NCBI RefSeq assembly: GCF_947496515.1
Contig: NZ_CANMDB010000004.1
Location: 1 to 64,000, forward strand
Source of the DNA: an uncultured Roseobacter sp.
GTDB lineage: Bacteria > Pseudomonadota > Alphaproteobacteria > Rhodobacterales > Rhodobacteraceae
Direction of reading: 5' to 3'
DNA: 64,000 bases
Made by a program: the position numbers and the translations under genes. Every line of letters starts with the position of its first letter. Position 1 is the first letter of the stretch. Below are positions 1,715 to 35,846 of the stretch, piece by piece. Below the pieces are notes generated by a model. That model made no database searches, had not been told where the DNA came from, and saw only the letters and a list, made by a program, of their open reading frames with translations.

Positions 1715-2319
1715 TGCCATTGGTTCTCGCGCCTGCTGCTCCAATCGCTTGGGGGGCCATCGTCAAAGGAGCCGCTTACATCGGTTCTGCCGCAGCGGCG
1801 GCCTGGGGTGTCAACCAAGCCGTTGAGGCGATCTCGGCAGACGATGGCGCCGCCCAGGACCTCGACGAAGATACGCCGGTCGCGGTGACATGTGCGACAT
1901 GCGCGCAGAGCCCCTGCGCGCATCTTGCTTGCGGTGCACCAGGCTCGACATATCGTGGCGGCGCGCACGGGTGCGTCGGACGCCCAGCCATGAAGGCCCT
2001 TCCTGATGGGGCGATACATAGCCACCACACACCCGCTGATCATTATTCGCATCTGCCCACACCCGTCGGTCCATCTGTCCAGTTGGCTGCAAGCGATCAC
2101 CGAAATACATCGTCATACGGAAGGCGGGTGCATGGGCCACGTTACGCGCCTCAACGTCAGGCTCTAGCATCTGGGAGGACTATGGAGGCTATTTTTTATG
2201 ATGTCGCAGATATTCGCAATGTTGCTCGCGAGGCAGGCGATCCAACTCGATACGATGCCGCGATATCACAGATGCTAGGCTATGCCGAGTGTCTCCACGC
2301 ACATGGAATAATTCGATAG
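1714..2319 (+). CDS. Putative T6SS nuclease effector, SHH-motif toxin domain
   Basis: A 201-residue protein. Residues 1-50 hold a hydrophobic Ala/Gly-rich helix (IVKGAAYIGSAAAAAWGV) of the sort that docks small effectors on PAAR/VgrG. A Cys-rich segment follows (CATCAQSPCAHLACGAPG), then YRGGAHGC, IHSHHTPADHYSHLP, SDHRNTSSYGR and a C-terminal VADIRNVA...YDAAISQMLGYAECL block. The HSHH...DHR arrangement resembles the His-rich HNH/EndoVII-like nuclease domains of polymorphic toxins (SHH type); this is recognised by pattern, not by search. It sits between a DUF4123 adaptor and candidate immunity genes, as expected for a secreted toxin. Catalysis and target (DNA or RNA) are inferred. Confidence 0.6.
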   Translation: MPLVLAPAAPIAWGAIVKGAAYIGSAAAAAWGVNQAVEAISADDGAAQDLDEDTPVAVTCATCAQSPCAHLACGAPGSTYRGGAHGCVGRPAMKALPDGAIHSHHTPADHYSHLPTPVGPSVQLAASDHRNTSSYGRRVHGPRYAPQRQALASGRTMEAIFYDVADIRNVAREAGDPTRYDAAISQMLGYAECLHAHGIIR

Positions 2320-2343
2320 ATACTAAAGCAGTGAGGCTTGAAT

Positions 2344-2961
2344 ATGAAAGACGAGGATTGGATCATTTACCCGCTTCAGGGTCTTGGGCATCTGCGATTT
2401 GGTATGAACCGAGCCAATATTGAGGCTCTAAGTTCCGTTTACGGTTCGATTACGTACGACTCCGGGACCGTCGATCGCGTAGCAATCGCTAACGACACGC
2501 TAGCAAAATTTGGGCACTTCTTCTCGGATGATGTCAGAAGCAATATTGAACAGAATCATATTCCCCAGATCGCAACCGATCCCCGCACGCTTCTCACGCT
2601 TTCTAATCACTCTCTGCAAGTCGATCTTTTTGACGATACGGTGTGCGGCATCACCATTTACCAAGATCACTCGCAGGTTTCTCTGGACGGTCAGAATATC
2701 TTCACGATGGAGCAAGGCCGAGCCCTAGAATTCCTCGAACGCCTGAACGGGAGGCCCGGCTACTATGTTGGCCAATCGGCGCGTTTCGACGGGCTTGCTC
2801 TTGAACTCTTTGGTTTTTCTGAAGCGGGCGAAGGACCCAACGATCCAATCACGCCAGGTGCTAAACTTACCCAAGATCAGAGTCCCTGCAGCATCTGGAT
2901 CGGGGCGGAGCCAAACCCACTCAACGATCCTACGGTTCGCTGGAGAGAACACACTTGGTAG
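2344..2961 (+). CDS. Probable immunity protein for the adjacent effector
   Basis: A 205-residue soluble, acidic protein. The ATG at 2344 is preceded by GTGAGG; a TTG two codons upstream is less likely. No domain is recognised with confidence. The opening IYPLQGLGHLRFGMNRANIEAL resembles the start of several small bacterial proteins read as immunity factors (a GLG.lrFGM motif before a helix). It begins 25 bases after the effector gene and is visibly AT-richer than vgrG and the adaptor, both common for immunity genes acquired with a toxin. The role is inferred from position only. Confidence 0.5.
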   Translation: MKDEDWIIYPLQGLGHLRFGMNRANIEALSSVYGSITYDSGTVDRVAIANDTLAKFGHFFSDDVRSNIEQNHIPQIATDPRTLLTLSNHSLQVDLFDDTVCGITIYQDHSQVSLDGQNIFTMEQGRALEFLERLNGRPGYYVGQSARFDGLALELFGFSEAGEGPNDPITPGAKLTQDQSPCSIWIGAEPNPLNDPTVRWREHTW

Positions 2962-3284
2962 GCGATGCGTGCTTCGTTGTCGGGGTTTCGGTTTACAATG
3001 AAGAAGGTCGTTCTCAGATTTTCACCCCGGATGAGGATGCGATGGATGACAAGATACTTTGGGCGGCGCGGTTGATGGAGCCACTTCAAGCGGCAACCCT
3101 ACTCGACGCGCATCCTGTCGATATTCCGCAATGCTGCCACCACTTGATGTTCAAAACATTTCGGTCGAACGATAAAGCGCTCGCTGACGTTCTGTACCCG
3201 ACATTCGTAAGCAGCGATCAGCCGGATGCCACGCTTCCCACGTTTGGACGGGGCACCAAAAGCAACTCGGTTTCAGTCCAATAA
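2955..3284 (+). CDS. Small hypothetical protein overlapping the candidate immunity gene
   Basis: A frame of 109 residues starting at a TTG at 2955 that overlaps the preceding stop by 7 bases in another frame; the next in-frame ATG is near 3042, so the real product may be shorter. It has the composition of a real soluble protein (DEDAMDDKILWAARLMEP, DIPQCCHHLMFKTF) and ends 11 bases before the PAAR start. It could be a second immunity protein, or the displaced C-terminal part of the preceding gene after a frameshift. No family is recognised. Confidence 0.4.
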   Translation: MVGDACFVVGVSVYNEEGRSQIFTPDEDAMDDKILWAARLMEPLQAATLLDAHPVDIPQCCHHLMFKTFRSNDKALADVLYPTFVSSDQPDATLPTFGRGTKSNSVSVQ

Positions 3285-6991: not shown

Positions 6992-7648
6992 ATGGCATTT
7001 GGCGTTTTCATCCACCGAACTGCCTCTATTTATGACGACGTGCCGTCGGAGCGATATCAGTTTCCAAAGCAGTATCTGACGCGCGTTCAGCAATGTGAGG
7101 GTGACTGGATCGTCTATCTCGAGCCTAGCAAGGTCAGGCACACCAAGGGCTATTTCGCTGTCGCCAAAGTGCAGGATATCATTCCTGATCCCCGGGATGC
7201 AGACATGCACTTGGCGGTCATTGAACCGGGCACATATCTGGATTTGGCGATCCAGTGCCGTTTCGCTATGAGCACGAGGTTGTCGAGTATGGTCTGCTCA
7301 ATGATTTCGGTGAGATTTCCGGAAGGGCTCAGGCTGCTGTACGGCCGCTAGCACCAACTGACTTCGCCAGGATCGTCGAGCTAGGTCTTGGGACAGATCA
7401 TGACATCCTTCCTCGGGTCGGTCAGGCCAGCGACACTGGCGGGTTCAAAGAAGACCAAACCCCTTTTCAGTTGCCAGCCGCCAGAGAAGGCATCAATCAA
7501 CTCACCAGCAGGGCTGTCCGCGACCGCAATTTCCGCAAGACTGTCCTCCGCGCTTACGGCGAACGCTGCGCGATCACCGGTCTGCGTCTTATCAACGGTG
7601 GTGGACGCGCAGAGGTGGAAGCTGCACACATCCCGGAAGTCGCCGCGG
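6992..7648 (+). pseudogene. HNH endonuclease (restriction-like), frameshifted and truncated
   Basis: The first frame reads FGVFIHRTASIYDDVPSERY, then YLTRVQQCEGDWIVYLEPSK and AVIEPGTYLD. The protein then continues one frame over from about 7243 as FGDPVPFRYEHEVVEYGLLN, ISGRAQAAVRPLAP and finally VLRAYGERCAITGLRLINGG plus VEAAHI, the HNH_2 core with its Cys and His. The shift is explained by loss of one T in a T-run at 7243-7245. After AAHIPEV the expected second half of the HNH motif (a WMFDRGLI-type block) is absent, so the 3' end is also lost. Homologues are predicted methylation-dependent or restriction-like nucleases. Not functional as it stands. Confidence 0.75.
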
Positions 7649-8136
7649 CACCGCCCCTTACGCAAGCCACCAAATTTCTCCACGATGCCGCGCGCCTGAC
7701 CTTTCCTGTCCATAGCGATGCGACCGAGACGCTCGCCAGCCGACACGAGAAGGCGCAGCCGGTCGTTACGACCGCAAAGTTCGCGCGAGAGCCATATCGA
7801 CAGTGGCCCAGCCTGATGCGTGAAGTGAGATCGTGGCGACGATCTCATCCGGATCCGTCACACAATCACACTCACGCAGGCTCGTGCCATCTCCTTGCAG
7901 AACACAAACCGCGCAATTGGTCTACCAGACATCCGGCCCACCGTAACGCCTGTTGGCTCTCTCCTTCAGCTCGCGATGTCCGAGATACGACAATCGCCCA
8001 TCTCAATGCCCTTGAAGCTCATTCCAGCAGATGCCCAAGGTCAACTTTTCGCGCGGTGCCACCACCCATGCCTTCCCATGCTCCGCGTCTGCAAACGTTA
8101 ATGCCCTCCACCGCGCGACCTCTTAACCCCGCCCCG
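7649..8136. other. Junction sequence between the mobile region and murD, no gene called
   Basis: Both strands keep long frames here (for example the plus frame continuing to 8217), but the translations have no recognisable motif, are biased in composition and lack start signals. The sequence from the HNH break to about 8100 is probably the far boundary of the island. The dcw-cluster promoter region begins after it. Confidence 0.5.
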
Positions 8137-8188
8137 TACCGACCTGCGCACCGTCGCGATACCGACAAAATACCGACGTCATACCGAC
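8137..8188 (+). repeat. Array of five TACCGAC heptamers, mostly 11-bp spaced, upstream of murD
   Basis: TACCGAC occurs at 8137, 8160, 8171 and 8182, with a degenerate copy CACCGTC at 8149. The last three spacings are exactly 11 bp, about one helical turn, so all copies face one side of the DNA. The array ends about 150 bases before the murD start. A second array of the same motif and orientation precedes the gene at 33837-34208. It is most simply read as a multi-copy binding site for an unidentified regulator. Three TTAACC half-sites lie nearby (8123, 8213, 8274), which could be CtrA half-sites. Confidence 0.7.
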
Positions 8189-8338
8189 GTGGCTTTTCGG
8201 CGCAAAAACCCTGTTAACCACGGCGCGGGCAGCTGAGTCGCCAAGACCGGTGCCCGCAGTCTGCGCGCGGCACGTTAACCGCCTTGCCCCCGGCGCGCGG
8301 GGGCGGCAGTGTCGCGGCACGCAGCAAGGAGAGCGTCC

Positions 8339-9730
8339 GTGATTCCGGTCAGAGGTATGCAAGGGCAGCAGGTTGCCGTTCTGGGTCTCGGGCGTTCGGG
8401 GCTGAGCGCCGCGCGCGCGCTCGCGGCAGGTGGCGCGACGCCGCTGTGCTGGGATGACAATCCGGACGCGCGGACCCGTGCCGAGACCGACGGCTTCACC
8501 TTCAGGCCCCTCAAAACCCCTGCCGATTTCGAGGGCGTGACGCGGTTGATCGTCAGCCCCGGCATCCCGCATCTCTACCCCGCGCCCAACCCGGTTGTGG
8601 CAAAAGCGCTGGCTGCCGGCGTGCCGATCGACAACGATATTGGCCTTTTCTTTCAATCCCTTGCGACCGGGGCCTGGAACAGGCTCGACGTTACCCCCCG
8701 GGTCGTCGCAGTGACCGGCTCCAATGGCAAGTCCACCACCTCGGCCCTCATCCACCACATCCTCAGTCAGGCGGACCGCCCCTGTCAGCTGGCGGGCAAC
8801 ATCGGGCGCGGCGTGCTGGATCTCGACCCGCCGGGGGAGGGCGCGGTGGTCGTGCTGGAGCTCTCCAGCTACCAGACCGAGCTTGCCCGCAGCCTGACGC
8901 CGGATGTGGCTGTCTTCACCAATCTCTCGCCCGATCATCTCGACCGGCACGGCGGTATGGGCGGCTATTTCGCCGCCAAGCGCCGGCTTTTTGCCGAAGG
9001 CGGCCCCGACCGCGCCATCATCGGTGTCGACGAGCCGGAGGGCCAGTTCCTCGCAGGGCAACTGGCCGAAGGCCCGGGGGACGCGCGTGTCATCCGCCTG
9101 TCCGTGACCCACAAGCTCACCGGACCCGGCTGGCAAGTCTCTGCCCGTAAAGGGTTTTTATCCGAATACCGCAAGAGCCGTCAGATCGCCTCCATCGACC
9201 TGCGCGGGATCGCGGGATTGCCGGGCGTGCATAATCACCAGAACGCCTGCGCCGCCTATGCCGCCTGCCGATCCTTAGGGATCGCGCCCAAACTGATCGA
9301 GGCGGGGCTGCATAGTTTCGACGGGCTCGCCCATCGCAGCCAGTTGGTCGGGGAGCGTGACGGGGTGCGGTTCGTCAATGACAGCAAGGCCACAAATGTC
9401 GATGCCGCGGCCAAGGCGTTGGCGGCCTTCCCGCGCGTCCGCTGGATCTGCGGCGGGTTGGAAAAGGAAGGGGGGGTGGCTGCGCTCGCCCATGTCGCCT
9501 CCGTGGTCAAGGCCTACGTGATTGGGCGCGAGGCGGCGGGCTTTGCGCTGCAACTGACCGCGCCGTCCGAAGTCTGCGGGACCATGGAGACAGCCGTCGC
9601 CCGCGCGGTGGCCGAGGCCGAACCGGGCGATGTTATCCTGCTGGCACCGGCGGCGGCGAGCTTTGATCAATACGATAACTTTGAGCGGCGCGGAGACGAC
9701 TTCGTGGCCCAGGTGCAGAAGTATCTGTGA
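8339..9730 (+). CDS. murD: UDP-N-acetylmuramoyl-L-alanine--D-glutamate ligase
   Basis: Cytoplasmic Mur ligase that adds D-Glu to UDP-MurNAc-L-Ala in peptidoglycan precursor synthesis. It shows an N-terminal Rossmann domain ([20 protein letters not shown]), the ATP loop [13 protein letters not shown], the central-domain motifs LELSSYQTE and [13 protein letters not shown], and the C-terminal [13 protein letters not shown] and [19 protein letters not shown]. The start is GTG at 8339 with AAGGAGA upstream, giving MIPVRGMQG..., the N-terminus typical of roseobacter MurD (463 residues); an ATG at 8309 has no ribosome site. It is the first dcw gene after the mobile region. The usual upstream neighbours mraY and murF are not in the window. 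Confidence 0.97.
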
Positions 9731-25492: not shown

Positions 25493-27178
25493 ATGTCCAG
25501 CCCCGATCGATCCCGCCTTTCCCAACAGCTAGAGATCGCGCTGACCACGTGCCGGGACGGGCTGCGGCTGCTGCGCCACCGCGGACCCAACCAGATCCAG
25601 TTCTGGTTCATCGCTCTGGTTGTGGGTGTTGCTGCGGGTTTTGCGGCGCTGTTTTTCCGTAAGGGCGTCAACAGCTTGCAGACCTACCTCTATGGCACCG
25701 AGGACGTACGGCTGCTGCATAGTTTCGCGCAATCGCTGCCGTGGTATCTGGTGCTGATCATCCCGATTTGCGGCGGGTTGGTCGTGGGGCTGATCCTGCA
25801 TCACTTTACCAACGACGCGCGCGCGCGGTCCGTGGCCGATGTGATCCACGGTGCCGCCATGCATGACGGTCGGGTGGAAGCACGGGCCGGGCTCGCCTCC
25901 GCGCTGGCCTCGATGATCACGCTGGGCACGGGAGGCTCAACGGGTCGCGAAGGACCGGTCGTGCACCTCGCTGCCGTCATCTCCACCTGGGTCAACCGGC
26001 GCATCCACGCCGACGGCATCACCGGGCGCGACCTCCTGGGCTGCGCGGTGGCCGCGGCAGTCTCCGCCAGCTTCAACGCGCCCATCGCGGGGGCGCTCTT
26101 TGCGTTGGAGGTGGTGCTGCGCCACTTTGCCGTCCACGCCTTTGCCCCGATTGTCATCGCGAGCGCCGCGGGCACGGTGATCAACCGGCTGGAATTCGGC
26201 GGCGTGACCGAATTCACGCTGGCGACGACAAATCAGGTGCAATTCTATCAGGAGATGCCCGCCTACCTGCTGCTGGGTCTGGTCTGCGGGCTCATTGCCG
26301 TGGCGCTGATGAAGGCGATCTTCTGGGCGGATGATTTCGGCACCCGTGTGCAGACCCGCACCGGCATTCCGCGCTGGCTGCGGCCCGCCTTTGCGGGTGC
26401 CATGCTGGGGGGCATAGCGATCTACTACCCGCATATCATCGGCGTTGGCTACGAGACCACGTCGCTGGCCCTGACAGGCCAGCTGGCCCTCTGGAATGCC
26501 ATCGTCTTTGCGGTGCTCAAGACCATTGCGGTGGCCATCACCATGGCAGGCCGGATGGGCGGCGGCGTCTTTTCCCCCTCCCTGATGCTGGGGGCGCTGT
26601 CGGGGTTGAGCTTTGGGCTGATCGCCACCAGCGTCTTTCCCGATGTTTCCAGCTCGCTGACGCTCTATGCGCTGGCGGGCATGGGGGCGGTTGCCGCTGC
26701 CGTGCTGGGCGCGCCGATCTCCACGACGTTGATTGTTTTTGAGCTGACCGGTGACTGGCAGACGGGTCTTGCCGTGATGGTCGCGGTCTCCATGTCCACG
26801 GCTGTCGCCTCGAAACTGGTGCACCGCAGCTTCTTCTTGACCCAACTGGAACGGCGCGGCATTCATCTTGCCGCCGGGCCGCAAGCCTATCTGCTGGCGA
26901 TGTTCCGGGTGGGGACCGTCATGCGCCCGCCAGACCATCCGCGCGCCGCCCAGGAAGATGCCTGCTGGGAGATGATCGGCGACGGTGTCTACATCGACAC
27001 CAATGCAACGCTGGAATCAGCCATGCCCATGTTCGAAAGCGGTGTGCGGTTCATCCCCGTCGTCAGTCTCAGCGCCGACGCGGCCCCACCGGAGCTACAG
27101 GGCGCGCTCTTCCATGTGGACGCGCTGAAGGTCTACAACCGGGCCTTGGCCGCCACGGCAGCCGAGGAGCATTCCTGA
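25493..27178 (+). CDS. CLC-family chloride channel or antiporter
   Basis: Polytopic membrane protein (561 residues, at least ten hydrophobic segments). It shows the CLC signature GTGGSTGREGPVVHLAAVIS (GREGP at residues 151-155, with the gating Glu), GRMGGGVFSPSLMLGALSGL (the GxFxP motif) and AAAVLGAPISTTLIVFELTG. The first selectivity motif, GSGIP in classic members, is replaced by ARSVADV, as in several bacterial CLC subgroups. The C-terminal 100 residues (FRVGTVMRPPDHP, then FESGVRFIPVV) look like a degenerate CBS pair. The sequence does not distinguish a channel from an H+/Cl- exchanger. Confidence 0.9.
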   Translation: MSSPDRSRLSQQLEIALTTCRDGLRLLRHRGPNQIQFWFIALVVGVAAGFAALFFRKGVNSLQTYLYGTEDVRLLHSFAQSLPWYLVLIIPICGGLVVGLILHHFTNDARARSVADVIHGAAMHDGRVEARAGLASALASMITLGTGGSTGREGPVVHLAAVISTWVNRRIHADGITGRDLLGCAVAAAVSASFNAPIAGALFALEVVLRHFAVHAFAPIVIASAAGTVINRLEFGGVTEFTLATTNQVQFYQEMPAYLLLGLVCGLIAVALMKAIFWADDFGTRVQTRTGIPRWLRPAFAGAMLGGIAIYYPHIIGVGYETTSLALTGQLALWNAIVFAVLKTIAVAITMAGRMGGGVFSPSLMLGALSGLSFGLIATSVFPDVSSSLTLYALAGMGAVAAAVLGAPISTTLIVFELTGDWQTGLAVMVAVSMSTAVASKLVHRSFFLTQLERRGIHLAAGPQAYLLAMFRVGTVMRPPDHPRAAQEDACWEMIGDGVYIDTNATLESAMPMFESGVRFIPVVSLSADAAPPELQGALFHVDALKVYNRALAATAAEEHS

Positions 27179-27247
27179 CGCCGTCGCAGCGTATCGCCGA
27201 TGTGTCTGTGGATGGCATGCCGCGGGATCCGATCCTGCAGGCGCTGC

Positions 27248-27592
27248 TCAGATCTCTTCGACGGTGATCCCATCCGCGCCGGAAAAAGCCAAATGGTCCT
27301 TGATCTCCGCCACGGCGGCCTTGGGATCCTCATACGACCACGCCACATTGGACAGGGTCGTGCTCTTCGTCACCACGGAGAAATAGCTGGCGTCGCCCTT
27401 GTGCGGGCAACGGGTCGATTTATCCGTCCTGTCCAGAAACGCCATCGCGATGTCATCGCGCGGGAAGTAGATGACGGGCGGATAGCTGCCTTCGGTTAGT
27501 TCAAGCGCCGCACTGCTCTCGCCCAGCACAGCCCCGCCCGCGCGCACGCTCCAGGTCCCTTCCGCTTTGCGGATCGTGATGTGATCGGCCAT
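27248..27592 (-). CDS. DUF427 domain protein
   Basis: A 114-residue protein consisting of one DUF427 domain: GTWSVRAGGAVLGESSAALE, YPPVIYFPRDDI, RCPHKGDASYFSVV and VAWSYEDPKAAVAEIKDHLA then FSGADGITVEE. The CPHKG motif and the last block are diagnostic. The family has a compact beta fold; its biochemical role is not established. It is the last gene of the leftward run from cobS through cobT and aminopeptidase P. Confidence 0.88.
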   Translation of the reverse strand: MADHITIRKAEGTWSVRAGGAVLGESSAALELTEGSYPPVIYFPRDDIAMAFLDRTDKSTRCPHKGDASYFSVVTKSTTLSNVAWSYEDPKAAVAEIKDHLAFSGADGITVEEI

Positions 27593-27648
27593 GACGTCTC
27601 TCCCCCTGACGCGTTATCTATCGGCGCCATGACAAAAACGTGACGGTC

Positions 27649-29439
27649 TCACAAAGGCGCAGTTGCCTCATCCAACCATGTTTTCGCCTGTGGTGATAGG
27701 CGCGGCCCGATTTTTTCCGCAACTTCGGCATGATAGCGGTTCAGCCAGTCACGCTCTGCACCGCTCAGCATCGCGATGACGATCAGCCGCCGGTCAATGG
27801 GCGCAAAGGTCAGCGTGCGCCAGTCGAGCATCCGGCGGTGATCATCGCCACCGGGCAGATCCGGCGCTTCCCGTACAACGATCAGGTTCTCGATGCGAAT
27901 ACCAAACGCTCCTTCGCGGTAGTAGCCGGGCTCGTTGGACAGGATCATGCCGGGTTCCAGTGGCACGTGGCTGGTGCGTGCAAGCCGCTGCGGCCCCTCA
28001 TGCACACTCAGATACGCGCCGACCCCATGCCCCAGCCCGTGGTCGAAATCCTGGCCTGCCATCCACAATGGGAGACGCCCGATAGCCTCGATATCGCGCC
28101 CGGCCAGACCCACGGGCCAGCGCAACCGGCTCATAGCGATCATCCCCTGCAGCACTCGGGTAAAGGCCGCACAGGCCTCTGGCGGCGGCGTGCCGATGGG
28201 AATGGTCCGGGTGATGTCGGTGGTCCCGTCGAGATATTGCCCCCCGCTGTCGAGCACCAGCAGATGCCCTGTCTCCAGGGTCCGGTCCGTCTCCTCGGTG
28301 ACGCGGTAATGCATGATCGCCCCATGCGGACCCGTCCCCGCGATGGTCTCGAAGCTGATCTCCTGCAGGGCATTGTCCCGCCGCCGGAGTGCCTCCAACT
28401 CGGTCACCACCTGCGTCTCGGTCACACTGCCCACTGGCTGCGCATCAAGCCATGCCAGCAGCTCCACCACCGCTGCCCCATCCCTCAGATGCGCACGCGC
28501 CGCGCCCTCGATCTCGGCCGCGTTCTTGCGCGCCTTGGGCAGCGCACAGGGATCGCCCTCAAAGACCGCACGATCCCCCAACAGCTCGGCCAGGGCAAAG
28601 GGCACCGTAGCCCGGTCGACGCGCACGGATCCCTCCAGCGCCGCAACCGCCGCAGTCAGGGCCTCTGGCGGATGACAGCGTACCGCCTCGCCCAGATGCG
28701 CCCGAACCTCCGACAGCTTCTCCGCCGCCATGAAAAGATCGACCGAGCTATCATCATGCAGCACCGCAAACCCATGGGCCACCGGGTTGCGCGGTACGTC
28801 CGAGCCGCGAATGTTCAACAGCCAGCAGATCGAATCCGGCAAGGTGATCAGCGCCGATCGATGTTCCGCTGCGCGCAGCTCCTCCGCCAGCCGCGTGCGT
28901 TTCGCGTCATGGCTTTCCCCGGCAAATTCAAGGGGATGCACAGACACCGCGCCGAGCGGCGGTCCGGGCTGATCCTCCCAGATCCGGTCCACCAGATTGG
29001 CGCTCTGCCGCAAGGTGACAGCACTGCCCTCCAGCGCCTTGCGCAGCGCCTCAATCTGCCCTGCACTGTGCAACCAGGGATCAAAACCCACGACGCCACC
29101 CTCTGCCAGGTGATCCGTCAACCAGGCAGCAAGCCCTACCTCGGGCCAGGGGACCGGCGAAAACACTGCCGCCACCTGGCGTTTGACCTGCGTCCGGTAG
29201 CGACCGTCGATGAACACCCCGGCCACGTCCCGCAGTACCGCGCAAAACCCTGCCGACCCGGTAAATCCCGTCAACCACCCCAGCCGCTCGTCCCGCGGCG
29301 CCACGTACTCCCCCTGATGCGCATCCGCCCGCGGTACCAGAAACCCGTCCAGCCCCTCCGCCGCCATGACCTCGCGCAGAGCGGCGAGCCGCGGCGGCCC
29401 CTGTTCCGGTCTCGCGGTGACCTCGAAAGACTGGAACAT
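27649..29439 (-). CDS. Aminopeptidase P family (Xaa-Pro) metallopeptidase
   Basis: A 596-residue M24 peptidase of the long APP1 type: two creatinase-like N-terminal domains (LREVMAAEGLDGFLVPRADA, GSAGFCAVL, VFIDGRYRTQVKRQV) and a pita-bread catalytic domain. Metal ligands are visible in LVLDSGGQYLDGTTDITRTI (two Asp), FDHGLGHGVGAYLSVHEGP (His) and MILSNEPGYYREGAFGIRIE (two Glu). It removes N-terminal residues preceding proline, probably in the cytoplasm since no signal peptide is seen. It follows cobT by 51 bases on the same strand. Confidence 0.93.
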   Translation of the reverse strand: MFQSFEVTARPEQGPPRLAALREVMAAEGLDGFLVPRADAHQGEYVAPRDERLGWLTGFTGSAGFCAVLRDVAGVFIDGRYRTQVKRQVAAVFSPVPWPEVGLAAWLTDHLAEGGVVGFDPWLHSAGQIEALRKALEGSAVTLRQSANLVDRIWEDQPGPPLGAVSVHPLEFAGESHDAKRTRLAEELRAAEHRSALITLPDSICWLLNIRGSDVPRNPVAHGFAVLHDDSSVDLFMAAEKLSEVRAHLGEAVRCHPPEALTAAVAALEGSVRVDRATVPFALAELLGDRAVFEGDPCALPKARKNAAEIEGAARAHLRDGAAVVELLAWLDAQPVGSVTETQVVTELEALRRRDNALQEISFETIAGTGPHGAIMHYRVTEETDRTLETGHLLVLDSGGQYLDGTTDITRTIPIGTPPPEACAAFTRVLQGMIAMSRLRWPVGLAGRDIEAIGRLPLWMAGQDFDHGLGHGVGAYLSVHEGPQRLARTSHVPLEPGMILSNEPGYYREGAFGIRIENLIVVREAPDLPGGDDHRRMLDWRTLTFAPIDRRLIVIAMLSGAERDWLNRYHAEVAEKIGPRLSPQAKTWLDEATAPL

Positions 29440-29490
29440 ACCGCTCTCCTCATCTTGCCAAATAAACTCCCCGCGGAGCGTCCCGCAGCC

Positions 29491-31368
29491 TCAACCCGCG
29501 CGCCGCATGCCCATCACGCGCGCGCGCGCCCGCGGGTCACTGTCAAAGAGCGCCGCCAGCTGCTCGGTCATCGCCCCCGCCAACTGATCCACATCGGTGA
29601 TCGTCACGGCGCGATCATAATAGCGCGTCACATCATGGCCGATCCCGATGGCGAGCAATTCCACCGCGCGCCGTTTCTCGACCATGGCGATCACATCACG
29701 CAGGTGTTTCTCCAGGTAATTCGCGGGGTTGACCGACAGCGTGCTGTCATCCACCGGCGCCCCGTCGGAGATCACCATGAGGATCTTGCGCGCCTCGTGC
29801 CGCGCCATCATCCGCCGGTGCGCCCATTCCAGCGCCTCCCCGTCGATGTTCTCCTTCAGCAGGCCTTCCTTCATCATCAGCCCCAGATTGGGCCGGGTCC
29901 GACGCCAGGGCGCATCCGCTGATTTATAGACGATATGGCGCAAATCGTTCAGCCGCCCCGGACCCTGCGGTCGCCCCGCGGCCAGCCACGCCTCGCGCGC
30001 CTGCCCACCTTTCCACGCCCGTGTGGTAAAGCCCAGGATCTCCACCTTGACGTTGCAGCGCTCCAGCGTGCGCGCCAGCACATCCGCACAGATCGCCGCG
30101 ATCGAAATAGGCCGACCGCGCATGGAGCCGGAGTTGTCCAGCAGCAGCGTCACCACCGTGTCGCGGAACTCGGTATCCTTCTCCACCTTGAAGCTCAGCG
30201 GTGTCGTCGGATTGGCCACCACCCGCGCCAGCCGCCCGGCATCGAGCATGCCTTCTTCGAGATCGAACTCCCAAGACCTGTTCTGCTGCGCCTGCAACCG
30301 CCGCTGCAGCTTATTCGCCAGCCGGCTCACCGCGCCTTTCAACGGCTCCAACTGCTGATCTAGATAGGCGCGCAGCCGCTCCAGTTCCGCAGGCTCAGCC
30401 AGCTCTTCCGCGCCGATTTCCTCATCAAAATCAGATAGGTACACGAGATAGTTCGGGTCGGCGTCGGACGCAGGCGGTGGGGCAGGCGGCTCCATCGGGG
30501 CCTCGCCCTCGGGCATCTCTGCCTCTTCGCCCATCTCCTGGTCGGCCATGTCATCCATGGAGACCTGGGCCTGGCTCGCGTCCTGCTGCTCTTCCTGGGA
30601 CTGCTCCGGGCTGCCCTCGGCTTCTTCCTCGTCCTGATCGTCCTGACCGGTGCTGTCGGGCTCGCTGTCGTCCTCCGAGCCCTCTTCGGCCTCTTCCTCT
30701 GTATCCTCGTCGATCTGATCCGGGTCATCGCCCAGCTGATCGCCGTAGCCGAGATCGCTGATCATCTGACGGGCAAAGCGGGCAAAGGCGGACTGATCGC
30801 TCAGTGTCTCGTCCAGATTGTCGAGCGTCCCGCCGCACTGATCCTCGATAAAGCCGCGCCACAGCTCCATGACGTTCTGAGCACCGGAGGGCAGATCGCG
30901 CCCCGTGGCCAGATGCCGGATGAGGTAGCCCGCCGCCGTGGCCAGCGGCGCGTCCGCGGCCTGGCTCACCTGATCGTAACCCTTGCGCATTGCCTCATGG
31001 CCGATCTTGGCGTCGATGTTGCCAGCCGTCCCGGGCATGTCCCGCGCGCCCATTGCCTCGCAGCGCGCCGTCTCCATCGCCTCGTAGAGATCGCGGGCCA
31101 TGTCGCCCTGCGGTGCATATTTCGCATGGGTCTGCCCGTTGTGATAGCGCCGGTTCAGCGCCAGCGCATCCGCCGTGCCCCGCGCGAGCAGCACCTCGTC
31201 CCGCGTCATCCGGCGCGAGACCTGCGGCAGCCGCATCGCATCCCCCGACAGCCCCGCAGGATCGACGGAATAGGAAACCGTCAACTCCGGGTCATTCGCC
31301 ATGACCTTGGTCGCTTCGCCAAGCGCCTTCTTGAAGGCATCGGCCGGGTTGTCGGAGGGTTTGGTCAT
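29491..31368 (-). CDS. cobT: Cobaltochelatase subunit CobT
   Basis: The 625-residue VWA-domain subunit of aerobic cobaltochelatase, which with CobS forms the ATPase chaperone for CobN in cobalamin synthesis. The N-terminal domain ([20 protein letters not shown]) is followed by a very acidic linker ([20 protein letters not shown]) and a C-terminal VWA domain with MIDAS motif [20 protein letters not shown]. Its start overlaps the small upstream gene by 4 bases (ATGA), and cobS lies just beyond. CobN is not in the window. Confidence 0.94.
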
Positions 31369-31745
31369 CTCAACTCCTGGAGTTCCGGTTGCGCCGCCCC
31401 ATAGTCTTCGCAGGTTTCACTGAGGGTTTCAAAGACTTCGCGGCTCTGGCGGTCCTGTGCGTAGATGGTAGCTTCCATCAGCAGTGCCATCAACGGCCGC
31501 TGCTGGGCGATGAACCTGTCCACCTCGGTCTGGTCGCCCAGACGCAGAGCCACTGCGCGAAAAGCCTGCGCAAGCTCTACATCGTCGGGTTGACCATCAA
31601 GAAACTTGGACCACTGCGCGTAGTCCGCATAGCCGAACCAAAAGGCCGCACATTGTGCCGCGGGGTAGAGGGGCTCATCCGAAGCAGCCACAGGCCCAAC
31701 GGATAAGCAAACAGCGCATGCTGCGGAAGGAAAGAAACTGCGCAT
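31365..31745 (-). CDS. Small exported hypothetical protein between cobS and cobT
   Basis: A 126-residue protein with a Sec-type signal peptide ([20 protein letters not shown], cleavage likely after VAA) and a mature helical part with three Cys ([36 protein letters not shown]). It starts 15 bases after cobS and overlaps cobT by 4 bases, so it is translationally linked to the cobaltochelatase genes although CobS and CobT are cytoplasmic. No family is recognised. It may simply be carried in the operon or respond to the same metal or vitamin demand. Confidence 0.7.
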
Positions 31746-31760
31746 TATGACCGCATCGGC

Positions 31761-32747
31761 CTAGCCAAGGCTCACACTTGCTGCACTCTCGGGCAGTTCC
31801 TCGTCAAACAGACGCTGGTAGAATTCCGCGACGGTCTGACGTTCCAGTTCATCACATTTGTTGAGGAATGAGAGCCGGAAAGCGTAGCCGATGTTGCGGA
31901 AGATCTCAGCGTTCTGGGCCCAGGCGATCACCGTGCGGGGGCTCATGACGGTGCTCAGATCGCCGTTCATAAAGGCCGTGCGGGTCAGGTCCGCCACAGT
32001 GACCATCTGCTTGACGATCTTGCGGCCCTTTTCGGTGTTGTAGTGCGGGTTCTTGCTCAGCACGATGGCCGTTTCCGCGTCGATGCTGAGGTAGTTGAGC
32101 GTGGCAACGAGGCTCCAGCGGTCCATCTGGCCCTGGTTGATCTGCTGCGTCCCGTGATAGAGCCCTGTCGTATCGCCCAGGCCCACAGTGTTTGCCGTGG
32201 CGAAGATGCGGAAATAGGGGTGGGGCGTGATCACCTGGTTCTGGTCGAGCAGGGTCAGCTTGCCGTCCACCTCCAGCACGCGCTGGATCACGAACATCAC
32301 ATCCGCCCGGCCCGCGTCATATTCATCAAAGACGATCGCGGTGGGATTTCGCAAGGCCCAAGGGAGAATTCCCTCTTGAAAATCAGTAACTTGCTTTCCG
32401 TCCTTCAACTTGATCGCATCCTTGCCGATCAGGTCGATCCGGCTGATGTGACTGTCGAGGTTGACGCGGACGGCGGGCCAGTTGAGACGCGCGGCCACCT
32501 GTTCGATGTGGGTCGATTTGCCCGTCCCGTGATAGCCCTGCACCATCACGCGGCGGTTGTGGGCGAAGCCTGCGAGGATGGCCAGTGTCGTGTCCGGGTC
32601 GAACTTGTAGGTGCTGTCAACGTCGGGCACACGGTCGCTGCGATCCGCGAAACCCTTGACCACCATATCTGTGTCGATGCCAAAGACGTCGCGGACGTGA
32701 ACCTCTTCGGTGGGCTTTGTGTTGATGTCCAGTGCGCCGTCGGCCAT
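31761..32747 (-). CDS. cobS: Cobaltochelatase subunit CobS
   Basis: MoxR-related AAA+ ATPase subunit of aerobic cobaltochelatase (328 residues). Walker A is [20 protein letters not shown], Walker [21 protein letters not shown], and sensor-type segments [20 protein letters not shown] and MDRWSLV follow. The N-terminus contains [15 protein letters not shown], typical of CobS. It heads the leftward run cobS - small exported protein - cobT. No B12 riboswitch was recognised in the 120-base gap before it. Confidence 0.95.
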
Positions 32748-33836: not shown

Positions 33837-34208
33837 TTAATCCGCTGATTTTTCGCCTTTTACCGGGATCAGGGATCCGTCCGGGACGCGCAGTTCCGGG
33901 CCGGGATCAGCGGCGCGTTCAGCGCGTGGTGCTGCGGGTTCAGCCGGTAACCGGAGGGCGGGCCGGTCTGCCTGATCGACCGGTTTGCGAAAGACCAGAA
34001 GATTGCGCCAGTTGGTCGTGGTGGAGGCAAACCCTGCACGCTCCTGCGAGGGGAGCGCCTCGGCCCGCTGATACTCCCACCCGTCGCGCGCCATCTCGTT
34101 CAGCACCTCTTCGACAGCGTGGGCAAAGCGCGCCTCGGGTGTCTTGATCCCGCGGGCCTTGAGACCTTTGGCGGGGGCGGCGATCACCTTGTATTGATAG
34201 TCTGTCAT
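33837..34208 (-). CDS. DUF4177 domain protein
   Basis: A 123-residue protein. The N-terminal 75 residues (YQYKVIAAPAKGLKARGIKT, ARFAHAVEEVLNEMARDGWE, YQRAEALPSQ, TTNWRNLLVFRK) match DUF4177, a small alpha/beta domain of unknown function. The rest is a Pro/Ala/Glu-rich tail. It is preceded 49 bases upstream by the second array of 11-bp-spaced TACCGAC heptamers, which points to dedicated regulation shared with the murD region. Confidence 0.8.
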   Translation of the reverse strand: MTDYQYKVIAAPAKGLKARGIKTPEARFAHAVEEVLNEMARDGWEYQRAEALPSQERAGFASTTTNWRNLLVFRKPVDQADRPALRLPAEPAAPRAERAADPGPELRVPDGSLIPVKGEKSAD

Positions 34209-34256: not shown

Positions 34257-34307
34257 GTCGGTGCAGTGTCGGTATCACGTCGGTAAAACGTCGGTATCAC
34301 GTCGGTG
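34257..34307 (-). repeat. Second array of 11-bp-spaced TACCGAC-type heptamers
   Basis: On the plus strand GTCGGT(A/G) occurs at 34257, 34268, 34279, 34290 and 34301, spaced exactly 11 bp; read toward the downstream gene this is TACCGAC or CACCGAC. The array lies between the end of gatB and the DUF4177 gene start (34208). It resembles the array at 8137-8188 in motif, period, copy number, orientation to the gene and A/T content of the spacers. Confidence 0.75.
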
Positions 34308-34334
34308 CGTAGCGCACGCCGGTCTCAGCCGTCG

Positions 34335-35846
34335 TTAACCTTTGAGCTTTTGCGCGACCAGTTGGTTGACCGCCTTGGGATTTGCCTTGCCGCCGGTGGC
34401 TTTCATCACCTGACCGACGAACCAGCCCGCAAGCTTGGGGTTCTCTTGGGCCTTGGCCACCTGATCGGGGTTGGCGGCGATGATCTCGTCCACGGCTGCC
34501 TCGATCGCGCCGGTGTCGGTGACTTGCTTCATGCCGCGCGCCTCGACGATCTGCGCCGGATCCCCGCCTTCGGTGTAGACGATCTCGAACAGCTCCTTGG
34601 CGATCTTGCCGGAGATGGCGTCCGAGGCGATGAGGTCGATCACCCCCCCCAGTTGCGCGGGCGAGACCGGGCTGTCGGTCATCTCGCGCTCGTCTTTCTT
34701 GAGACGGCCGAAAAGCTCGTTGATGACCCAGTTCGCGGCCATCTTGCCATCGCGACCGGCAGCCACTGCCTCGAAATACCCCGCCGAGGCCAGATCGGCC
34801 GTCAGCACGGAGGCGTCGTAGTCGCTCAGACCGAAATCGGCGATAAAGCGCGCCTTCTTGGCGTCGGGCAGTTCCGGCAGGCTGTCCCGGATGTCATCGA
34901 CCCAGGCCTGCTCCAGCTCCAGCGGCAAAAGATCGGGATCGGGGAAGTAGCGGTAATCATGCGCCTCTTCCTTGGAGCGCATGGAGCGCGTCTCGTTCCG
35001 GTCGGGATCGTAGAGCCGGGTTTCCTGATCGACGGTGCCGCCCGCTTCGACGATGGCGATCTGGCGCCGGGCCTCCACGTCGATCGCTTGCTGGATAAAC
35101 CGCATGGAGTTCATGTTCTTGATCTCGCAGCGGGTGCCGAGATGGCTGAAATCCTGCGTGGCCTGATATTTCTCATATTGACCGGGGCGGCAGATGGAGA
35201 CGTTGACGTCCGCGCGCATGGCACCCGACTGCATGTCGCCGTTGCAGGTGCCTAAGTATCGCAGGATCTGGCGCAGCTTGGCCAGATAGGCGGCGGCCTC
35301 TTCCGGGCCGCGGATGTCGGGGCGCGAGACGATCTCCATCAGGGCGACGCCGGTGCGGTTGAGATCCACAAAGGACATATTGGGGTCCATGTCGTGGATG
35401 CTCTTGCCCGCATCCTGTTCCAGATGGATGCGTTCGACCCGCACGAGGCGGGCCTTGCCGTCGCCCATTTCCACCAGCACTTCGCCTTCGCCGACGATGG
35501 GGTGGTAGAGCTGGCTGATCTGGTAGCCCTGCGGCAGGTCCGGGTAAAAGTAGTTTTTCCGGTCAAAGGCAGAGGTCAGGTGGATCTCGGCCTTGAGGCC
35601 CAGCCCGGTGCGCACCGCCTGTTCGACGCAGTATTCATTGATCGTGGGCAACATGCCGGGCATCGCCGCGTCCACGAAAGACACGTTGCTGTTGGGCTCT
35701 GCACCGAATTTGGTGGAGGCAGCGGAGAAGAGCTTGGCCGCACTTGTGACCTGGGCGTGCACTTCCATCCCGATGACCAGTTCCCAATCGTGCTTGGCAC
35801 CGGCAATGGTTTTCGGGGTGGGGGTCTCGTAGGTGAGATCGAGCAT
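34335..35846 (-). CDS. gatB: Aspartyl/glutamyl-tRNA amidotransferase subunit B
   Basis: Kinase subunit of GatCAB (503 residues), which converts misacylated Glu-tRNA(Gln) and Asp-tRNA(Asn) to the amides. It shows [81 protein letters not shown] and [19 protein letters not shown], plus the C-terminal YqeY-like tail ([20 protein letters not shown]). The length is normal. gatA and gatC are not adjacent. Its 3' end is 28 bases from the heptamer array. Confidence 0.96.

Follow-up and report, generated by a model that had tools for sequence, protein, structure and literature searches.

The window analysed here, a stretch of 64,000 nucleotides that makes up positions 1-64000 of contig C4 in an uncultured Roseobacter genome (G000; 4.93 Mb in 61 contigs), carries two arrays of TACCGAC-type heptamers. 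Array 1 (8137..8188, plus strand) lies upstream of murD and consists of heptamers at 8137, 8149, 8160, 8171 and 8182, read from the sequence with spacings of 12, 11, 11 and 11 bp, the copy at 8149 being a degenerate CACCGTC. It sits in a frame of recurrent motifs that we call type B, with TTAACC on its left (8123..8128, plus strand) and GTTAACC on its right (8213..8219, plus strand), both placed by the frame consensus, followed by a strand-less GAGTC (8235..8239, read directly), a GANTC site at the place where other type-B frames hold GATTCG; GANTC is the methylation site of CcrM. The downstream murD (8339..9730, plus strand) has a GTG start at 8339, picked by eye, within an open frame listed from 8309, and NCBIfam TIGR01087 scores above its cut-off on the frame from 8357.

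Array 2 (34257..34307, minus strand) belongs to a second frame, type A, and lies between gatB upstream (34335..35846, minus strand, named by a family-library match) and a DUF4177-like gene downstream (33837..34208, minus strand), whose match to Pfam PF13783 at 24.5 bits falls just below the 25-bit cut-off. It holds five heptamers, every spacing being 11 bp and the first and last copies CACCGAC, and the strand-less GTTAAC of its frame (34334..34339, by frame consensus) overlaps the gatB stop codon. On re-reading, both arrays stand where the original prediction had placed them, with their heptamers phased as it described, about 150 bp before the murD GTG at 8339 and 49 bp before the ATG of the DUF4177-like gene at 34208. 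With up to two mismatches, the heptamer-pair pattern matched eight times in the window, seven times inside the two arrays and once elsewhere, compared with a mean of 0.11 and a maximum of 2 in 100 shuffles. The first 8 kb of the window are low in GC (0.53-0.58), and the proteins encoded at 21-1711 match DUF4123 (above cut-off) and, below cut-off, a C-terminal domain of the T4 gp5/VgrG type, a combination known from type VI secretion loci.

Across G000, TACCGAC-N4-TACCGAC was found 132 times with up to one mismatch, against a single match for the reversed control, and 69 times exactly, against none; the count of 11-bp-spaced pairs is therefore far beyond chance, and the matches listed collapse to about 45 arrays, each of which was fetched and read. 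The earlier picture of two such loci holds for both of them, but not as a pair standing alone, and the helically phased direct repeats that it described recur at matching places in relatives. A typical array reads CACCGAC-n4-TACCGAC-n4-TACCGAC-n4-TACCGAY, frequently with a fifth CACCGAC, and its spacers are biased to G(T/C)NA while varying freely from copy to copy. In the type-A frame, GTTAAC lies about 31 bp before the array and ACCGCGCGCCGCG immediately before it; in the type-B frame, TTAACC lies about 25 bp and an extra ACCGAC 12 bp before the array, and GTnGGnTTT..TGAAAACAGGCGTTAAC..GATTCG follows it, so that type-B frames reach well past the array itself. The two labels come from a simple score, with 2 of 100 arrays tied, and by eye the frame models omit 5 of 51 A arrays and 7 of 47 B arrays. 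GTTAAC and GANTC motifs are recurrent around the arrays, as in type-B frames such as window 8123-8239; they resemble CtrA and CcrM/GcrA sites and may link the array sites to the cell cycle. Seven array loci of 6 kb gave no Rfam match at gathering scores, and this, together with arrays that face both directions relative to genes, led us to set aside an RNA element.

Among 58 relatives, exact pairs occur in nine, all of the same genus, with 84 in G011. A sequence model of type-A arrays returned 45 arrays in G000, 57 in G011, 12 in G010, 11 in G018, 10 in G012 and 9 in G006, and at most five in each of the other 13 genomes of the genus, with none in G003, G005 and G009; since the search scored 150 of about 1,800-3,100 first-look candidates per genome, these counts may be low, and the weakest matches (E up to 0.04) are possibly chance. 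By flanking-protein similarity, 36 of the 45 G000 arrays fall in locus groups that hold an array in another congener, a figure that probably includes a few paralogous loci, which such grouping can join and of which group 12 looks like an example. A LivG-like site has an array in common to nine genomes. Upstream of murD, the conservation expected of a promoter operator did not materialise, an array being present in only 3 of 19 genus genomes (G000, G011 and, in degraded form, G006) and no recognisable one in the other 16.

Across the family, three-heptad arrays (one mismatch) occur in 26 of 394 Rhodobacteraceae genomes from 393 genera, with a maximum of 254 matches in G323, and the reversed control is present in two. 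Named genomes with a four-heptad array gave at least 112 stretches, and the 80 matches listed include Roseovarius, Salinihabitans, Silicimonas, Sedimentitalea, Boseongicola, Pseudooceanicola, Sulfitobacter, Shimia, Marivita, Pseudohalocynthiibacter and others; Salinihabitans flavidus and Pseudooceanicola antarcticus are examples of cultured species among them. Several of these arrays lie before the same genes as in our genome, namely lpd, the formate-dehydrogenase iron-sulphur subunit, cimA, leuD and chorismate mutase, the genes there being matched by eye on their first residues and those of G000 named by the family library. Some sites are thus probably ancient and have been lost often.

At fixed positions, congeners differ in the word itself. 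In G005, G007 and G009, the valS site carries GTGCAC repeated at 11 bp instead of TACCGAC, which predicted a second genome-wide set. With overlapping matches counted separately, GTGCAC-N5-GTGCAC-N5-GTGCAC (up to one mismatch) was found 20 times in G005, 20 in G007 and 23 in G009, three times in G016, twice in G011, once each in G001 and G004, and not at all in the remaining 12 of the 19 genomes, G000 included, while the reversed control gave none in any of the 19. In the same three GTGCAC-rich genomes, the TACCGAC model counts 0, 2 and 0 arrays, respectively. Gene context was read at 9 of the 16 GTGCAC loci returned, and eight of these nine coincide with a TACCGAC site of a relative: at the LivG-like ATPase (G004), an ABC permease (G005 and G009), a photolyase-like gene (G009), acpS-lepB (G005 and G016), cysS-cimA (G007) and, though farther off, a lipoprotein gene (G001). 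The ninth, in G011, does not coincide; this GTGCAC array in a TACCGAC genome (L422/L427, G011:C16:48453) lies between apparent ABC sugar-transporter genes.

Two intergenic sites document the exchange most closely. Upstream of lepB, the array is of TACCGAC in G000 and G011 and of GTGCAC in G005, G007 and G016, none being seen in the other 14 of the 19 genomes, and an alignment of four of the array-bearing genomes shows the GTTAA, CTGTTAA/GCGTTAA, GATTCG and CCGTTGCG-type blocks around the array to be common, wholly or nearly. In G006, a lone CAGTGCACAGCC in a decayed element at this site (L434) is possibly a relic of the GTGCAC word in an otherwise TACCGAC lineage. Upstream of cimA, G000, G006, G010 and G012 have TACCGAC and G007 has GTGCAC, and G009 combines one GTGCAC with a third word, (G)TCATAC, present as three units at 11 bp. 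In G007 the third word closes the cimA array and is also found in the lepB and cobN stretches; in G009 it takes the form TGTCATACGCC-TGTCATACGCA, which looks like a pho box. In single arrays upstream of lepB and cimA in G007 (L442 and L463), GTGCAC and GTCATAC units are mixed, so that both may be read by the same protein, unless one of them is replacing the other. A self-similarity scan of 94 loci from five gene searches, chosen for a G000 array at the place and with N ignored, placed 15 loci at lag 11, all of them these arrays, compared with 3, 6, 4 and 0 at lags 7-10 and 1, 0, 0 and 0 at lags 12-15.

The arrays are also polar with respect to strand composition. Over 6 kb (once 4.8 kb) around each of 140 arrays, GC skew read in the TACCGAC direction averages -0.067, the part not due to gene direction being -0.0747 +/- 0.0035, and at third codon positions TACCGAC stands on the locally C-rich strand in 137 of 140 arrays, a test whose composition classes are estimated from the same loci that it scores. 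An orientation set by a regulated gene downstream, as originally proposed, gives way to one that tracks local strand composition. In 1-kb bins at 20 G011 loci, skew lies at -0.05 to -0.12 upstream out to 9 kb and at 0 to -0.04 from 3 kb downstream onward. Around 26 arrays, third-position skew in genes within 10 kb upstream lies between -0.17 and -0.22 if the gene runs with the array and between +0.13 and +0.17 if it runs against it; beyond 4 kb downstream the corresponding values are -0.03 and +0.01, near the averages for contig C4 (-0.05 and +0.01). In a comparison of 26 arrays (20 of G011 and six of the seven on C4, array 1 being excluded), the 10 kb upstream have a C excess in 26 of 26, larger than that downstream in 24 of 26, and their mean was never reached in 20,000 resamplings of random points, all taken from contig C4. 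Skew is greatest 2-3 kb upstream, and a sharp step at the array is absent.

Array 1 agrees with the local skew at 3 kb and disagrees at 10 kb (+0.032); it adjoins the low-GC segment at the contig end. At window 26001-32000, a segment with no array at its edge, skew falls to -0.10 to -0.13 in an otherwise mostly positive contig. When five loci were compared across the genus, the array strand of orthologues bearing TACCGAC was, on average, richer in C than that of the rest at each locus (16 versus 71, Mann-Whitney p = 1.4e-5, uncorrected for kinship and with one locus of other words, G009 cimA, among the 71 counted as having none); the species are related, so the counts are not independent. Exceptions are a low skew in genomes lacking a TACCGAC array at cimA (G011, G014 and G018) and valS (G018), and a near-zero skew at G011 valS, where the array is present. 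Asymmetry is not clear at GTGCAC loci, five of eight being negative in the test of the 10 kb upstream and the seven in the genus comparison averaging +0.028. A search for a specific oligomer behind the skew found only general C-rich words.

Arrays, pitch, shared positions, word switch, polarity and one-sided asymmetry are all properties of the sequence itself, and the reading we favour, with a probability of roughly 0.55, is that the arrays are predicted binding arrays of a fast-evolving chromosome-marking protein with PhoB-like geometry. Each array would be covered by a row of protomers of what we infer to be one sequence-specific protein, one protomer per helical turn, on a footprint unit made of a 7-bp half-site and a 4-bp spacer. 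Such a protein would mark about 10-60 fixed chromosome positions, give them a direction and leave the neighbouring gene unswitched; it would change its word between sister species (TACCGAC, or GTGCAC mixed with GTCATAC) with the sites following, and the location, the 11-bp pitch and, at lepB, some of the surrounding frame would persist through the change. The 7+4 layout, combined with a third word that resembles a pho box, makes a winged helix of the PhoB/OmpR type the first guess for the protein. By eye, over the first 110 residues, no recurrent protein that could be the binder appears among the flanks of the 45 G000 loci; the regulators there are of the TetR, Lrp, LysR, XRE and Crp-like kinds.

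In TACCGAC genomes, a process would run from each site for about 10 kb toward the 5' side of the TACCGAC strand. The GTCGGTA strand appears to be left G- and T-rich, like a strand that is often single-stranded, and a leftward process exposing it would fit this composition. The asymmetry would then result from the site rather than precede it, and the site may load or start an oriented machine, be it a translocase, a polymerase or a DNA-transfer step; the one-sided trail favours such a machine. A fuller version, in which a chromosome-marking code is read by one DNA-binding protein as a word once per turn, is rewritten as the specificity of that protein changes, and sets off at each site a process running one way, with a strand-asymmetric mutation trail about 10 kb long, is put forward tentatively, as a possibility more likely wrong than right.

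Much of this geometry would also be expected if a response regulator of the PhoB/OmpR family governed a large regulon, with two-dimer arrays (a dimer taking two half-sites of 7 bp plus 4 bp) acting on neighbouring promoters and a recognition helix that has drifted, so that the operator word differs by species, an account that we hold to be rather unlikely. The operators of this family share with our arrays the tandem direct half-sites at about 11 bp, for which a cooperative oligomer is expected, and the 7+4 layout; the third word of G009, likened above to a pho box, fits as well, and many type-A arrays end about 14-40 bp before the start codon of tandem genes. CenR, an OmpR-family regulator of Rhodobacter sphaeroides, is described as reading TGA-N8-TGA, likewise with an 11-bp period (PMC9275681). 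That published box is another word, however, TGA being found here only in some spacers while TACCGAC is the conserved part, and CenR was rejected as the TACCGAC reader on that ground. The gene context departs further from such operators. For 98 arrays (45 of G000 and 53 from the 57 of G011), the setting is a tandem gene pair running with the array in 37 cases and against it in 19, a divergent gap in 14, a convergent gap in 19, the interior of a gene, as scored, in 8 and an edge in 1, distances and inside flags being approximate, as gene calls come from a home-made codon score, except for valS and cobN. In cobN the array, well inside the gene, is translated in frame in G000 as in G011, and G014 has a decayed form; in valS, likewise well inside, it adds 10 residues in G000, G010, G011 and G012. 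The flanking genes, read by eye at the 45 G000 loci and with 14 array neighbours (10 + 4) run against the family library, are mixed and mostly housekeeping, with no evident common theme. The proposal of promoter operators aimed at the downstream gene, and with it any simple promoter operator, is abandoned on these grounds: convergent arrays, arrays within genes and unrelated neighbours. Orientation tied to strand composition and not to the gene, positions not bound to promoters and a word that changes within the genus speak equally against the regulon.

Start signals for DNA transfer or packaging whose dialects differ by species, much like uptake sequences or a pac site, would explain other features, and we regard them as improbable. 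DNA would leave the array in one direction, part of it by way of a single-stranded stage, with C-to-T change on one strand, and alleles with good arrays would spread through more frequent transfer; the one-sided tract, about 10 kb long and weakening with distance, the dialects, the tolerance inside genes and the patchy occurrence in the family (26 of 394 genomes) all agree with this. Drive alone, though, would not predict a switch of word at unchanged sites, and of 36 viral-contig matches, 31 have a GC below 0.50 and only one, by eye, has spacers and a 3' flank as here. A BLAST search of plasmids and phages gave no match, with a low-complexity filter that may have masked the query; on these two results, a phage or plasmid origin was dismissed. 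A gene transfer agent packaging site was set aside as unlikely, the small terminase of the R. capsulatus agent reportedly being without a DNA-binding region and sequence specificity (PMC6854486). A dispersed mobile or copied repeat of the REP or MITE kind, with an incidental internal 11-bp repeat, we consider very improbable. Two G011 type-B copies at different loci (L112 and L121) are 92% identical over 201 bp, which points to recent copying or conversion, and type-B frames extend beyond the array; the acpS-lepB stretch is shorter and frame-less in G002, G008 and G015, and valS gains 10 residues. Against this, the cobN array adds no length compared with 11 of 15 arrayless orthologues, the other four being 1-2 residues shorter, positions are common to species and genera, the word changes at an unchanged site, and spacers differ freely.

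That the arrays are a replication-polarity signal like KOPS or Chi is, in our estimate, very improbable. Over the 140 loci, GGGNAGGG, the KOPS motif, has 149 copies on the strand opposite the array and 52 on the array strand; in G012 the array signs change at parS, and those of G010 are compatible with a change there. GGGNAGGG is described as polar in alphaproteobacterial replicons too (PMC13342612). The arrays resemble it in being polar and correlated with replication direction; they differ in word and number, and in a polarity that follows local skew and not the replichore. Contig C4 is instructive, because GGGNAGGG runs 77 to 7 in one direction, making the contig one replichore, yet four of its seven arrays are minus and three plus. 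The anti-replication arrays at 115742 and 296901 have reversed local skew, and two of the plus arrays sit at minima of the local skew. Array direction thus tracks local composition in the first place and replication to a limited extent, and strict replication polarity, suggested by G012 and G010, is contradicted by C4. Some 50 multi-copy arrays are also unlike a short, frequent motif; Chi is a single short motif with a one-sided effect on the 3'-ended strand, and the strand sign here appears, from composition, to be opposite to what resection would expose.

The arrays also differ from the other systems nearest to them. SlmA, Noc and MatP each have tens of dispersed palindromic sites with a stable word, read by one chromosome-organising protein; our sites are similarly in the tens but are phased direct repeats, polar and switching in word. 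In Neisseriaceae and Pasteurellaceae, DNA uptake sequences form dialects of species-specific single short words, which are preferentially taken up and are present in very large numbers, also in genes. Their dispersal over the chromosome, genes included, is shared by our arrays, but they number hundreds to thousands of copies, against phased arrays numbering 45 and 57 in the two richest congeners. The nearest printed case found is that of the TAACTGA direct repeats of Beggiatoaceae, which come in sets of 2-6 heptamers (PMC4679880); they too are many, mostly intergenic and patchy, with no neighbour pattern and with the binder unidentified, but the heptamers are apparently contiguous, in contrast to the 4-bp spacer and 11-bp pitch here, and a single word serves across phyla, mostly just upstream of start codons. 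In the open-licence literature searched, four array sequences are printed in no paper, and the papers listed on TACCGAC with direct repeats and related themes include nothing on such arrays, in keeping with the original remark, whose author knew of no described roseobacter operator of this form.

If true, a change of word between sister species at tens of sites, at unaltered location and pitch, would offer a rare example of co-evolution between a DNA-binding protein and a genome-wide set of its sites, and one readable from sequence alone. If the sites cause the asymmetry, Rhodobacteraceae would have an oriented chromosomal process that the direction of replication or of transcription does not explain. 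Two minor observations concern the wider searches. A GC-rich viral contig (L392, IMGVR_UViG_3300037791_000022) carries a type-B-like TACCGAC array at 7490 and may be phage or host flank. The reversed-control word CAGCCAT, spaced at 11 bp, gave seven matches in G187 and one in G253, and is perhaps another array word belonging to another genus.
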